In this document: one piece after another, positions 1,424-45,794 of the stretch
Position numbering within the stretch: the stretch's first letter is position 1
Layout: every line of letters begins with the position of its first letter
Assembly (NCBI RefSeq): GCF_947623445.1
Contig: NC_135240.1
Coordinates: forward strand, 25,854,001 to 25,918,000
Length of the DNA stretch: 64,000 nucleotides
Direction of reading: 5' to 3'
Source of the DNA: Clavelina lepadiformis
Taxonomy: Eukaryota; Chordata; Ascidiacea; Aplousobranchia; Clavelinidae
Notes under the pieces: model-generated
What the model was told of the DNA's origin: nothing
What the model saw: only the letters and a program-made list of their open reading frames with translations
Database searches by the model: none
Made by a program: the position numbers and the translations under genes

Positions 1424-1478
1424 CTAGGCCACCAGCTGGCCAGACTCCCGTCTAGGCCACCAGCTGGCAAGACTCCCG
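1424..1478 (+). repeat. 28-bp satellite, two units
   Basis: Two units with core CCAGCTGG followed by GACTCCCGTC, the second with GGCAAGACT instead of GGCCAGACT. They run directly into a truncated arginine tRNA. Confidence 0.8.
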
Positions 1479-1547
1479 TCGGCTTAGCCGGATTAGCGCG
1501 CTGGACTTCTAATCCAGAGGTGCCGGGTTCGAGACCCGGCAGGGATT
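1478..1547 (+). pseudogene. Truncated tRNA-Arg(TCT) abutting satellite
   Basis: The anticodon arm (CTGGACTTCTAATCCAG), a fully paired T arm and the 3' CAGGGAT are those of tRNA-Arg(TCT). The 5' acceptor strand and first half of the D arm are replaced by satellite-derived CGTCGGCTTAGCCGG, so no acceptor stem can form. Confidence 0.8.
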
Positions 1548-1656
1548 ATTTGGCTTAATATTTTAAAAAGCTAATCACTTAACTCTACATATTTTCATCG
1601 TAAATTGAGAAAACCGTTAACATCATCTTATTATCAATTTTATCAAGATTTTATCA

Positions 1657-1664
1657 ATTTGCAT
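1657..1664 (+). promoter_or_regulatory. Octamer ATTTGCAT upstream of tRNA-Ser (representative)
   Basis: A perfect POU-type octamer lies at -23 to -16 relative to the mature serine tRNA at 1,680. The same eight bases occur at exactly this distance before 55 of the 57 serine loci, including those with otherwise different upstream DNA. Exceptions are the copies at 33,321 (none) and 43,475 (ATTTGTAT). A Pol III enhancer role is inference from octamer use in snRNA-type promoters. Confidence 0.5.
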
Positions 1665-1679
1665 TGAACATTAAGCACA

Positions 1680-1761
1680 GTTGTCGTGGCCGAGTGGTTA
1701 AGGCGACAGACTCGAAATGTGATGGGCTCTGCCCGCATAGGTTCGAATCCTGCCGACAACG
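1680..1761 (+). tRNA. tRNA-Ser(CGA), weakened
   Basis: 82 nt, loop CTCGAAA. The anticodon stem ACAGA/TGTGA has two mismatches and the T stem starts with an A opposite C. The acceptor and variable arms pair. A strong T-rich terminator follows. Confidence 0.6.
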
Positions 1762-1837
1762 CTGACATAAATTTTCTTTTTCATAAGTGATTCGAGAAGT
1801 GTGCGATTTTATCAATTTGCATTGATCATTAAGCACA

Positions 1838-1919
1838 GTTGTCGTGGCCAAGTGGTTAAGGCGACAGACTAGAAATCTGTTGGGCTCTGCCCGCGTAGGT
1901 TCGAATCCTGCCGACAACG
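1838..1919 (+). tRNA. tRNA-Ser(AGA)
   Basis: All stems pair. Differs from the consensus only by A for G after GCC in the D arm (GCCAAGTGG). TTTT follows within 20 nt. Confidence 0.85.
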
Positions 1920-1995
1920 CTGACATAAAATTACGTTTTCATAAGTGATTCGAGAAGTGTGCGATTTTATCAATTTGCATTGAACATTAAGCACA

Positions 1996-2077
1996 GTTGT
2001 CGTGGCCGAGTGGTTAAGGCGACAGACTAGAAATCTGTTGGGCTCTGCCCGCGTAGGTTCGAATCCTGCCGACAACG
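1996..2077 (+). tRNA. tRNA-Ser(AGA), consensus
   Basis: Acceptor GTTGTCG/CGACAAC, anticodon stem ACAGA/TCTGT, variable arm GGGC/GCCC and T stem all pair, with discriminator G. It is followed by TCTAG repeats rather than an immediate T-run. The first TTTTT is about 50 nt downstream. Confidence 0.92.
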
Positions 2078-2087
2078 CTGACATAAC

Positions 2088-2117
2088 GTCTAGTCTAGTC
2101 TAGTCTAGTCTAGTCTA
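2088..2117 (+). repeat. (TCTAG)n microsatellite, ~6 copies
   Basis: Pure pentamer run directly after the last serine unit of the group and before the leucine tRNA flank. Confidence 0.95.
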
Positions 2118-2342
2118 ATTTAGTCTGAGTCATATTTTTCAAAGCTTTTCACTTAACTGTACATATTTTCATCCTAAATTGAGCAAATCATTAACATCAT
2201 CGTCTACGTCTTCATCGTTGCATGTATCTGTGAATGTTACACAGTCACGAGCGAAAACCACCGTGACATTAGTCCTAAATTAAGCCGTTTACTGGTTTTG
2301 TTGTAAGTATTATTAGAACGGAGATCCATATAAAACATCGAG

Positions 2343-2460
2343 GTCAGGATGGACGAATGGTCTAAGGCGCCAGACTCAAGCAGAGGCTTAGTCGCTTTGT
2401 GCGGCTCTAGGGTGTTCTGGTCTCCGAATCTAAGCGTGGGTTCGAATCCCACTTCTGACA
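2343..2460 (+). tRNA. tRNA-Leu(CAA) with 34-nt intron
   Basis: Acceptor GTCAGGA/TCTGAC and anticodon stem CCAGA/TCTGG are intact. An intron at 2,381-2,414 lies one base 3' of the anticodon, the normal position for eukaryotic tRNA-Leu(CAA). Oddities: the D arm and A box read TGGACGAATGG rather than TGGCCGAGTGG, and the variable arm (CTCC..CTAAG) no longer pairs. TATAAAA lies just upstream and TTTT follows. Confidence 0.8.
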
Positions 2461-2641
2461 GTAGTTTTGGAAAGTTTTACTTCACATATATGCTAACTTT
2501 GTGTCGGATTGCATTGATGTGAACAGTAAAATTGAACATTGCGAAATTTATTTCTTAGTTCCACAACGGTTCGATCAAGTAATTTTTTCCGATTTTCTAG
2601 ACTGGATCGTTTTTTAAAGGGTAAAAGGTTGGTATGAGTTT

Positions 2642-2715
2642 GTCTCTGTGGCGCAATGGATTAGCGCGTTGGACTTCTAATCCAGAGGTTCCGGGTTCGA
2701 GTCCCAGCAGGGATG
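2642..2715 (+). tRNA. tRNA-Arg(TCT)
   Basis: Intronless, 74 nt. Acceptor GTCTCTG/CAGGGAT pairs with wobbles and the anticodon loop is CTTCTAA. One T-stem mismatch (CCGGG/CCCAG). TTTT lies about 17 nt downstream. Confidence 0.8.
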
Positions 2716-43398: not shown

Positions 43399-43474
43399 CT
43401 GACATAAATTTTCTTTTTCATAAGTGATTCGAGAAGTGTGCGATGTTATCAATTTGTATTGATCATTAAGCACA

Positions 43475-43556
43475 GTTGTCGTGGCCGAGTGGTTAAGGTG
43501 AAAGACTAGAAATCTGTTGGCATCTGCCCGCGTAGGTTCGAATCCTGCCGACAACG
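43475..43556 (+). tRNA. tRNA-Ser(AGA), half-rewired stem
   Basis: AAAGA/TCTGT as at 41,795. The upstream octamer is mutated to ATTTGTAT. Confidence 0.6.
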
Positions 43557-43566
43557 CTGACATAAC

Positions 43567-43605
43567 GTCTAGTCTAGTCTAGTCTAGTCTAGTCTAGTCT
43601 AGTCT
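43567..43605 (+). repeat. (TCTAG)n, ~8 copies
   Basis: Pure pentamer run. Confidence 0.95.
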
Positions 43606-43821
43606 TAGTCATATTTTTCAAAGCTTTTCACTTAACTGTACATATTTTCATCCTAAATTGAGCAAATCATTAACATCATCGTCCACGTCTTCATCGTTGC
43701 ATGTATCTGTGAATGTTACACAGTCACGAGCGAAAACCACCGTGACATTAGTGCTAAATTAAGCCGTTTACTGGTTTTGTTGTAAGTATTATTAGAACGG
43801 AGATCCATATAAAACATCGAG

Positions 43822-43939
43822 GTCAGGATGGACGAATGGTCTAAGGCGCCAGACTCAAGCAGAGGCTTAGTCGCTTTGTGCGGCTCTAGGGTGTTCTGGT
43901 CTCCGAATCTAAGCGTGGGTTCGAATCCCACTTCTGACA
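43822..43939 (+). tRNA. tRNA-Leu(CAA) with intron
   Basis: Intron at 43,860-43,893, mature part as at 2,343. Confidence 0.8.
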
Positions 43940-44120
43940 GTAGTTTTGGAAAGTTTTACTTCACATATATGCTAACTTTGTGTCGGATTGCATTGATGTG
44001 AACAGTAAAATTGAACATTGCGAAATTTATTTCTTAGTTCCACAACGGTTCGATCAAGTAATTTTTTCCGATTTTCTAGACTGGATCGTTTTTTAAAGGG
44101 TAAAAGGTTGGTATGAGTTT

Positions 44121-44194
44121 GTCTCTGTGGCGCAATGGATTAGCGCGTTGGACTTCTAATCCAGAGGTTCCGGGTTCGAGTCCCGGCAGGGTTG
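44121..44194 (+). tRNA. tRNA-Arg(TCT)
   Basis: Perfect T stem, 3' CAGGGTT. Confidence 0.82.
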
Positions 44195-44475
44195 ATTGGC
44201 TTAATACTTTAAAAAGCTAATCACTTAACTCTACATATTTTCATCCTAAATTGAGAAAACCGTTAACATCATCGTCTACGGCTTCTATAAAGTAAATCTA
44301 GAATGAAACAATCTGGATTGGTGCGTTGTATTTATCCTCGATTAAACATCGTTGCTTGGATCTGTGAATTTTATACAGCAACGAGTAAAACAACCGTGAT
44401 ATTAGTGCTAAATTTAGCCTTTACCTAGTTTTGTGGTAATTATTATAAGAACGGAAATCCATACAAAACATCAGG

Positions 44476-44623
44476 GTCAGGATGGCCGAGTGGTCTAAGG
44501 CGCCAGACTCAAGCAGAGGCATAGTCGCTTTGTGCGGCTCTAGAGGCGTGGGTTCGAATCCCTAGTAGTAGACTAGATATCTGTTGAGCTCTGCCGGCGG
44601 ATGTTCGAATCCTGCCGACAACG
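44476..44623 (+). pseudogene. Leu/Ser chimeric tRNA
   Basis: Full-length 5' end, intron variant GGCATAG. Confidence 0.8.
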
Positions 44624-44699
44624 CTGACATAAGATTTCTTTTTCATAAGTGATTCGAGAAGTGTGCGATTTTATCAATTTGCATTGATCATTAAGCACA

Positions 44700-44781
44700 G
44701 TTGTCGTGGCCGAGTGGTTAAGGTGACAGATTAGAAATCTCTTGGGATCTGTCCGCGTAGGTTCGAATCCTGCCCACAACG
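44700..44781 (+). tRNA. tRNA-Ser(AGA), variant
   Basis: As at 27,523, with a further variable-arm change (CTGTCCGCG). Confidence 0.45.
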
Positions 44782-44798
44782 CTGACATAACGTCTAGT

Positions 44799-45712
44799 CG
44801 TAGCCAGCAAGCGAACTTGAATGGAATAGAGCACTGTTAATGGCGTTATTTCTCAAGGTTCGTACAAGCGTCACAGTTAGTTCCCACTCCCAGTTACTAA
44901 ATGTTTTGGATTCAAATCCCTGCCCAAGCGCTGGTCGTCTATTCTTAGGAAATAAAATGAAATTATCCTACAAGACATTGAAAGTTTAAGTGTGCAACAA
45001 GACTCTACAAAATTGAAGTTCAGTAACACACAAAAATTTCAGTCCCACAATGAAAAAAGGTGGAAAGGTATAAATCTACCGATAAGGTTGGACGTAAGCG
45101 ATGGCGCAGTGAAAACAGCGGAGAACAGCAAATCAAAGGTTTTCGGTTCAAGCTTCTGGCCATCCAAGCCTAGTCCAAGAAGATTCTGTCGCATAGTTCC
45201 CACTCGAAGGTAGGCCACTGAACGTTTTGGGATCAAATCCCTGCCAAAAGGCTGGTCTTCTTTTCTTAGGAAATAAAACGAAATTATCCTAAAAGACTTT
45301 GAAAGTCGAAGTGTGTGATAGGACTCCATAAAATAGATTTTAACTCACATAAAAAAATTTCAGTCCCACAACGAAATAAGGTGAAAAGGTATAAATGTAC
45401 CAGTTGTCAGTGAAGTAAGCGATGGCGCAGTGAAAACATATGCTAGCAGCAAATCAAAGGTTCTCGGTTCAAACCTCTGTCCATCCAAGCCTAGCCTAAG
45501 AAGATACCGTCGCATAGTTCCAACTTCCAGTTAGGTAATTCAAGGTTTTGGGATCAAATCCCGGAGCAAGCGCTGGTGTTCCTATCTTAAGATACGACGA
45601 ATTATTCCTGAAAGACTTTGAAAGTCAGTGTAATAAGTAAGTAAAAATTTACTCACATAAAAATATTTCAGTCCCGCACTTTTCATGTTAAAAGATAGAA
45701 ACTCCCATTGAA
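44799..45712 (+). repeat. ~1-kb tRNA-like module repeat, copy 7
   Basis: Modules at 45,098-45,165 and 45,419-45,486. It ends early, without the G-rich and satellite-leader part. Confidence 0.6.
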
Positions 45713-45716
45713 ACGT

Positions 45717-45794
45717 CTAGGCCACCAGCTGGCCAGACTCCCGTCTAGGCCACCAGCTGGCCAGACTCCCGTCTAGGCCACCAGCTGGCCAGAC
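45717..45794 (+). repeat. 28-bp satellite, ~3 copies
   Basis: Right edge of the array. The last unit breaks off at CCAGACG. Confidence 0.9.

Follow-up and report, generated by a model that had tools for sequence, protein, structure and literature searches.

Clusters of tandem or repetitive tRNA genes have been described in Entamoeba (PMC2652664), Arabidopsis (PMC12308677), zebrafish (PMC11417395) and man (PMC4041453). The present study concerns an array of tRNA genes on chromosome C1 of the ascidian Clavelina lepadiformis, analysed in a window of 64,000 nucleotides (C1:25,854,001-25,918,000) and made of composite units in which genes for tRNA-Leu, tRNA-Arg and tRNA-Ser are accompanied by a Leu/Ser chimera. 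Numerous tRNA arrays exist in the genome, so that this one is not a lone locus. As we reconstruct it, a composite higher-order array would have arisen from one fusion, been multiplied and spread between chromosomes, with its consensus kept by selection; we put the probability of this whole history at about 0.8.

The Entamoeba arrays also consist of tandem units with several tRNA isotypes, and short tandem repeats lie between the genes in E. histolytica and E. dispar; however, the array copies of an E. histolytica isolate are reported to be mostly uniform and almost all tRNA genes to be arrayed (PMC2652664), whereas in Clavelina, a chordate host, units vary, most copies are decayed and each unit contains a chimeric pseudogene. 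The SYY (Ser-Tyr-Tyr) cluster of Arabidopsis is likewise a tandem cluster of several isotypes including Ser, but it is presented as one cluster, on chromosome 1, with other partners and with its expression studied (PMC12308677). In zebrafish, a chordate too, most tRNA genes are reported to lie in repetitive clusters, especially on one arm of chromosome 4 (PMC11417395), whereas the Ser arrays of Clavelina are found, among the matches listed, on C1, C2, C4, C7, C8 and C9. The human variable number tandem repeat (VNTR) at 1q23.3 is another large tandem repeat with tRNA genes, but its unit is described as 7.3 kb long, GC-rich, bound by CTCF and variable in copy number (PMC4041453), to be compared with 158-bp Ser monomers (gene plus spacer) in composite units of about 0.9-1.9 kb. 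A literature search pairing Clavelina with tRNA terms, with loose matching, listed papers in which Clavelina is unmentioned. What appears distinct here is a nested composite unit, with a traceable chimeric gene on three chordate chromosomes, in which decayed and intact copies are mixed.

Organization of the array

Loci of the window were detected by BLAST with Ser, Leu-CAA and Arg-TCT queries, by ARAGORN, and with the Rfam model RF00005 at its gathering score; genome-wide searches were carried out over the 209-Mb assembly. BLAST revealed 57 full Ser, 12 full Leu and 12 full Arg genes, plus 16 chimeras with a Leu 5′ part and a Ser 3′ part and five truncated Arg, i.e. 102 loci in total; none of the 123 hits in the window and the adjoining upstream stretch (L003) was on the minus strand. 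The Rfam score reached the threshold for 84 of the 102 loci (by position, the 57 Ser, the 12 Leu, the 12 Arg and three of the five truncated Arg), the 16 chimeras and the other two truncated Arg being detected via homology alone. ARAGORN found 72 tRNAs in the window (57 Ser and 15 Arg) and none in each of ten first-order Markov shuffles. With introns allowed, it called Thr(CGT) for 11 of the 12 intron-bearing genes, each 118 nt long, which we take to be Leu-CAA from their resemblance to the animal Leu-CAA gene. The minimum-energy fold of Ser is a clean cloverleaf with a long variable arm; that of Leu-CAA with its intron shows no cloverleaf, be it for the window form or for the form of another C1 array (L027), which makes the comparison uninformative. 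With its 158-bp head-to-tail units on a single strand and its 84 Rfam hits, the locus is a tandem tRNA gene array.

The genes follow one order. For all 12 Leu, the succession is Leu, Arg, chimera and then one to seven Ser, and the unit ends with a GTCTA run in six cases and with a single Ser followed by a 321-bp tandem repeat in the other six. Adjacent Ser monomers are 91.0% identical (30 pairs), whereas the best Ser match located more than 1.5 kb away reaches 99.2% on average, and at least 98% for 35 of the 40 monomers compared. Both figures are drawn from these 40 of the 57 window Ser, in which 150 or more bases of the 158-bp unit are aligned, a limit which leaves out many Ser at the ends of runs. 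Since neighbours are less alike than distant matches, the array bears the signature of a higher-order repeat, and is one. In higher-order repeats of the alpha-satellite type, too, neighbouring monomers have diverged and the matching monomers of distant blocks are nearly identical; the Clavelina monomer, by contrast, is made of a tRNA gene and a spacer instead of a centromere satellite.

The 321-bp repeat is present at seven sites (Table 1), and a 28-bp satellite begins less than 300 bp from it at six of them. Exact copies of this satellite number 166 in the genome, 162 in the window and four in a stretch of C8 (L018), and GTCTA runs of at least four units occur in the window only, among 30 genomic stretches examined. 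One run, at 34202-34496, is a (GTCTA)59 microsatellite, to be compared with 5-9 units in the other ten. The first copy of the 321-bp repeat contains A-box-like and B-box-like strings and is possibly a tRNA-derived short interspersed nuclear element (SINE) or an old tRNA relic. For the array itself, a tRNA-derived SINE origin was set aside: the units are in head-to-tail tandem, and the Ser matches listed are nearly all clustered, with one isolated copy (C1:7.75 Mb) and five others 6-19 kb apart among 100 listed of 727. The dispersed single copies that characterize SINEs were not the pattern among the matches listed; retroposon tails were not looked for.

The left start of the array is at C1:25,852,068 (L003:8068), 1.9 kb to the left of the window, and the part outside contains one truncated Arg, one chimera and two full Ser. 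On the other side, Rfam gave no tRNA between 45,800 and 64,000 with E up to 0.1, and ARAGORN found nothing tRNA-like in the 30 kb beyond the right end of the window. An earlier sequence-only reading of the window had counted the five classes of loci exactly as BLAST does here, and had placed them all in a single orientation, as they are. It had also seen higher-order blocks repeating with satellites between them, which agrees with the common order of the 12 units and with the positions of the 28-bp, 321-bp and GTCTA repeats. Its figure of about 100 holds for tRNA-like loci but not for working genes, most Ser being unpaired somewhere and Leu and Arg substituted. Its left edge, at 1424, has to be moved upstream, and the SLCO gene is not the only interruption, as it had supposed: other tRNA-free gaps, of 0.9-2.6 kb, contain the 321-bp repeats and the 28-bp satellite.

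The chimera junction and its spread

The chimera consists of an internally deleted Leu gene joined to a Ser gene from about position 29. A genome-wide search of its junction, with at most two mismatches, revealed 25 occurrences, 17 in this array on C1 (16 of them in the window), seven on C8 and one on C4; the same pattern read backwards, used as a control, had no match. Other marks go with the junction. The 12 window Leu and the sole full Leu of a C8 stretch (L017) share five substitutions, located in the A box and in the stem of the variable arm, while 17 full Leu from three other stretches (L018, L027 and L029) are without them. Similarly, the 12 window Arg and the one Arg of L017 have a T at base 28, where 19 full Arg of L018, L027, L028 and L029 have a C. 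Because the junction, the Leu substitutions, Arg base 28 and the satellite are common to the C1 and C8 arrays, we read the junction as the trace of a single fusion between a Leu-Arg array and a Ser array, which would afterwards have been amplified and moved between chromosomes. Simpler arrays of both kinds exist: a pure Leu-Arg array with a period of about 663 bp at C1:24.98-25.02 Mb (L027), and a nearly pure Ser array, with 326 gap-free full copies, at C2:23.29-23.38 Mb (L007-L015). In L018 (C8:1.325-1.327 Mb), intact-type Leu-Arg genes are on the minus strand, between plus-strand composite segments.

The C1 array contains, in addition, a large duplication. A stretch of 10,657 bp, at window coordinates -9029 to 1627, is found again with one mismatch inside the array (Table 1), and the left end of this second copy falls 15 bases into a Ser tRNA gene. 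The stretch carries an SLCO/OATP gene with two in-frame stops in its inferred exons; the Pfam OATP matches on both sides of the first stop adjoin each other (profile positions 14-48, with E 0.0002, under the family's cut-off, and 50-98). One SLCO exon, tested genome-wide, was found with full identity in these two copies only, other matches reaching at most 56%. The tRNA blocks next to it have diverged more from one copy to the other than the SLCO stretch itself; one match, for example, is displaced and shows 99.4% identity over 2.4 kb. Such differences would fit continued exchange inside the array.

Conservation and decay of the gene copies

The anticodons of the window Ser are AGA (34), TGA (16) and CGA (7). 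All 24 scored stem pairs are formed in 18 of the 57 copies (14 AGA and 4 TGA), and no more than one is broken in 30. A canonical B box is present in 55, and a run of four T within 40 nt, i.e. a potential terminator for RNA polymerase III, in 38; full pairing, B box and T run are combined in 11 (7 AGA, 4 TGA and no CGA). Eight Ser are identical to the 82-base family form, and one Arg of 12 equals the reference form, itself taken from the window. CpG decay was considered as the main source of damage, but with 26 of the 115 distinct body variants at CpG, which accounts for 16 of the 81 positions counted, and 13 of these 26 being transitions, no signature is dominant.

The comparison of arrays gives another picture. 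Between the C1 and C2 arrays, the Ser consensus body differs at none of its 82 positions, versus 11 of 76 for the spacer. For the ten pairs formed by five arrays of at least eight units, net divergence is 0.003-0.013 in the body, base 34 being left out of the calculation, and 0.019-0.090 in the spacer. In seven other arrays, the consensus body departs from that of C1 by one to three bases; base 34 is affected in five of these arrays, and the other bases involved are 13, 37, 40 and 43. Base 34 is also the variable one inside arrays: its diversity is 0.63 in C1 and 0.51 in C2, while the other body sites average 0.049 and 0.044, respectively. The 444 gap-free full Ser copies (two copies with indels were left out) have 278 AGA, 93 TGA, 67 CGA, six other anticodons and no GGA; we do not take the missing G34 to prove selection, since few independent changes of the anticodon may underlie these copies. 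The constancy of the body between arrays, when set against the diverged spacers, suggests that the family is under selection while single copies drift.

Several observations weigh against the favoured history, selection included. Inside the C1 and C2 arrays, the body is about half as diverse as the spacer, a difference of weak significance (p = 0.03 for C1 and p = 0.09 for C2); two arrays with three copies each show none or the opposite one (body-spacer ratios of 0.93 and 3.71). None of the 20 Ser of C8 is fully paired. The terminator is a mixed mark of use, since the T run found near two-thirds of the window Ser is within 40 bases downstream of only 34 of the 326 Ser of the C2 array. Selection for base pairing was not found either among the variants of 157 distinct Ser bodies, pooled from all arrays sampled: 14 of 74 single stem changes still pair, versus 25 of 144 possible ones, and so do two of four double changes. 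As stem changes pair no more than chance would have it, single copies drift. Furthermore, the Ser copies are not independent of one another, and gene conversion confined to the gene body could mimic selection.

Other tRNA arrays of the genome and features of the window

A 35-base Ser pattern has 727 exact matches in the genome, and its control none. Among the matches listed, Leu-CAA is also present on C2, C6, C7 and C8, and Arg-TCT on C7 and C8; one stretch of C2 (L029) has both Leu and Arg. A stretch of C9 (L026) contains Leu-TAG, Leu-AAG and Lys-TTT in tandem, and 62 of the 63 tRNAs scored in a genome-wide Rfam search, out of 18,458 candidates, are in the C9:4.93-5.17 Mb region. For initiator Met (iMet), 39 of the 40 matches listed are at C9:3.80-3.96 Mb. 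Of the 40 listed for Trp, 13 are within 14 kb on C5, and the rest are scattered or paired, many being diverged. Gly-GCC has 36 matches, 17 of them close, in single or small groups (7 of these within 11 kb on C7), and the selenocysteine tRNA (tRNA-Sec) one copy over the cut-off. Among the families searched, arrays are found for Ser-NGA, Leu-CAA, Arg-TCT, Leu-AAG/TAG, Lys-TTT and iMet: they are common in this genome, but may not be the general rule for its tRNA genes.

Two other regions may be mentioned. At C4:19.33-19.42 Mb, 15 weaker matches, 77-79% like the human-type Gly-GCC, extend over about 85 kb and are probably an array of another tRNA. At C2:2.05-2.086 Mb, the Ser matches listed on the minus strand succeed one another regularly as AGA, TGA and CGA, and the series recurs every 1.9-2.4 kb or so.

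Table 1. Features of the window, in window coordinates
Feature	Position	Strand
Truncated Arg, 3 Ser, (GTCTA)6	1490..2117	+
Higher-order unit 1: Leu, Arg, Leu/Ser chimera, 6 Ser, (GTCTA)6	2343..4131	+
Higher-order unit 2: Leu, Arg, chimera, 1 Ser	4357..5316	+
321-bp repeat, 2.3 units, containing A-box-like and B-box-like strings (box strings sought in this copy only)	5431..6161	
321-bp tandem repeat, other six sites	14907-15637, 22180-22910, 27719-28449, 32057-32787, 35719-36449, 44896-45626	
Leu/Ser chimera, ahead of SLCO segment	6634..6781	+
10,657-bp stretch, second copy (1 mismatch)	6873..17529	+
SLCO/OATP pseudogene (exons inferred); TAA stops in frame at 7789-7791 and 10463-10465	7684..12611	+
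Truncated Arg, chimera, 2 Ser	13989..14792	+
Truncated Arg, chimera, 5 Ser, (GTCTA)6	17392..18709	+
Higher-order unit 3: Leu, Arg, chimera, 7 Ser, (GTCTA)6	18935..20880	+
Higher-order unit 4: Leu, Arg, chimera, 1 Ser	21106..22065	+
Chimera, 7 Ser, (GTCTA)5	23383..24675	+
Higher-order unit 5: Leu, Arg, chimera, 5 Ser, (GTCTA)8	24896..26496	+
Higher-order unit 6: Leu, Arg, chimera, 1 Ser	26717..27604	+
28-bp satellite, ~76 copies	28676..30800	
Higher-order unit 7: Leu, Arg, chimera, 1 Ser; (GTCTA)8 ahead at 30795	31055..31942	+
28-bp satellite, ~6 copies	33014..33189	
Truncated Arg, 6 Ser, (GTCTA)59	33195..34496	+
Higher-order unit 8: Leu, Arg, chimera, 1 Ser	34717..35604	+
28-bp satellite, ~78 copies	36676..38866	
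Truncated Arg	38872..38928	+
Higher-order unit 9: Leu, Arg, chimera, 5 Ser, (GTCTA)9	39151..40757	+
Higher-order unit 10: Leu, Arg, chimera, 1 Ser, (GTCTA)6	40978..41916	+
Higher-order unit 11: Leu, Arg, chimera, 4 Ser, (GTCTA)7	42137..43601	+
Higher-order unit 12: Leu, Arg, chimera, 1 Ser	43822..44781	+
28-bp satellite remnant, right edge of the array	45714..45794	

Discussion

The history that we favour would run as follows. A tandem Leu-CAA/Arg-TCT array, similar to the one at C1:24.98-25.02 Mb, would have been joined once, by an illegitimate junction, to a tandem Ser-NGA array like that of C2, and the junction would have left the Leu/Ser chimeric pseudogene. The resulting composite unit (Leu, Arg, chimera and a variable number of Ser) would then have been multiplied via unequal crossing-over and conversion, gained satellites of its own (the 28-bp and GTCTA repeats) and reached three chromosomes, the C1 array being further enlarged by a tandem duplication that carried the SLCO pseudogene along. 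Single copies would drift and mostly decay, with selection keeping the family consensus; we propose that it does so because all the arrays together supply the Ser tRNA of the cell. A minority of the window Ser-AGA and Ser-TGA genes look transcribable.

The most serious alternative is that the array is inert, tRNA-derived satellite DNA, in which tRNA genes were amplified by chance and none is used here. It is compatible with the history proposed above, of which it denies the last step only, so that the odds of the two overlap, and we regard it as a real possibility, though not the better one. The low proportion of Ser with full pairing, or with pairing, B box and T run together, argues for it, as do the substitutions present in every Leu, the single unchanged Arg and the stem changes that ignore pairing. 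Against it stand the eight Ser that have kept the family form and the near constancy of the consensus body between arrays while spacers diverged.

Another possibility is a stage-specific supply, in which the arrays would be active in the oocyte and the early embryo and shut down in somatic tissue. By analogy, zebrafish maternal isodecoders are reported to come from highly repetitive regions and later ones from single- or few-copy genes (PMC11417395), and the Arabidopsis SYY cluster is described as silenced in most tissues (PMC12308677). The contents of the Clavelina genome would also be in keeping with it, the families listed above, iMet included, being arrayed and the 17 close Gly-GCC matches being single or in small groups. 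We hold this specialization to be rather doubtful.

An assembly artefact, giving a false copy number or a false SLCO duplication, is quite improbable. The 10,657-bp repeat speaks for it, as it has a single mismatch and is shorter than the 12-20 kb to which DNA was sheared for the HiFi library. However, the assembly is reported with 117-fold HiFi coverage and a quality value (QV) of 67.4 (PMC10884593), 124 kb of sequence are free of N, and the pairs of blocks listed with 900 bp or more, SLCO stretch and satellite apart, are 87.5-99.8% identical and hence distinguishable; moreover, the composite junction is present on two further chromosomes, and tRNA-Sec is single over the cut-off. Least probable of all is that the array or its satellites would act as a chromatin boundary or insulator, as the CTCF-bound human VNTR at 1q23.3 (PMC4041453) may suggest by analogy. 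A palindromic string of the 28-bp satellite (28676-30800 and 36676-38866), one mismatch from a CTCF core motif, would speak for it, but this motif was picked after seeing the sequence and multiplied by satellite growth, and exact satellite copies are confined to the C1 and C8 arrays.

The sequence-only reading had described copies ranging from perfect to heavily damaged, and so they do, from the eight of family form and the 18 that are fully paired to the broken rest. It had also seen in such arrays candidate birth-and-death nurseries for tRNA genes. Birth and death is supported as a process by the unequal numbers of units, the block duplication, the decay, the amplification of damaged genes and the differences at base 34, but a nursery of new functions does not emerge from these data, the fully paired Ser having AGA or TGA anticodons only.

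As a tentative wider picture, the tRNA set of Clavelina may be largely arrayed, Entamoeba-like in a chordate, with arrays that would exchange and fuse across chromosomes into composite units and might serve the supply of the germline or early embryo. Seryl-tRNA synthetase is not known to read the anticodon, and for this reason Ser-NGA genes could shift among A34, T34 and C34.

Whatever the use of the single copies, the unique break point present in each composite unit means that the spread of the array between chromosomes can be traced like that of a tagged element. With a chromosome-scale genome and many arrays of one tRNA family, the upkeep of a consensus during the decay of single copies becomes measurable, and the array family lets one ask which copies of highly amplified tRNA genes are used, and when.

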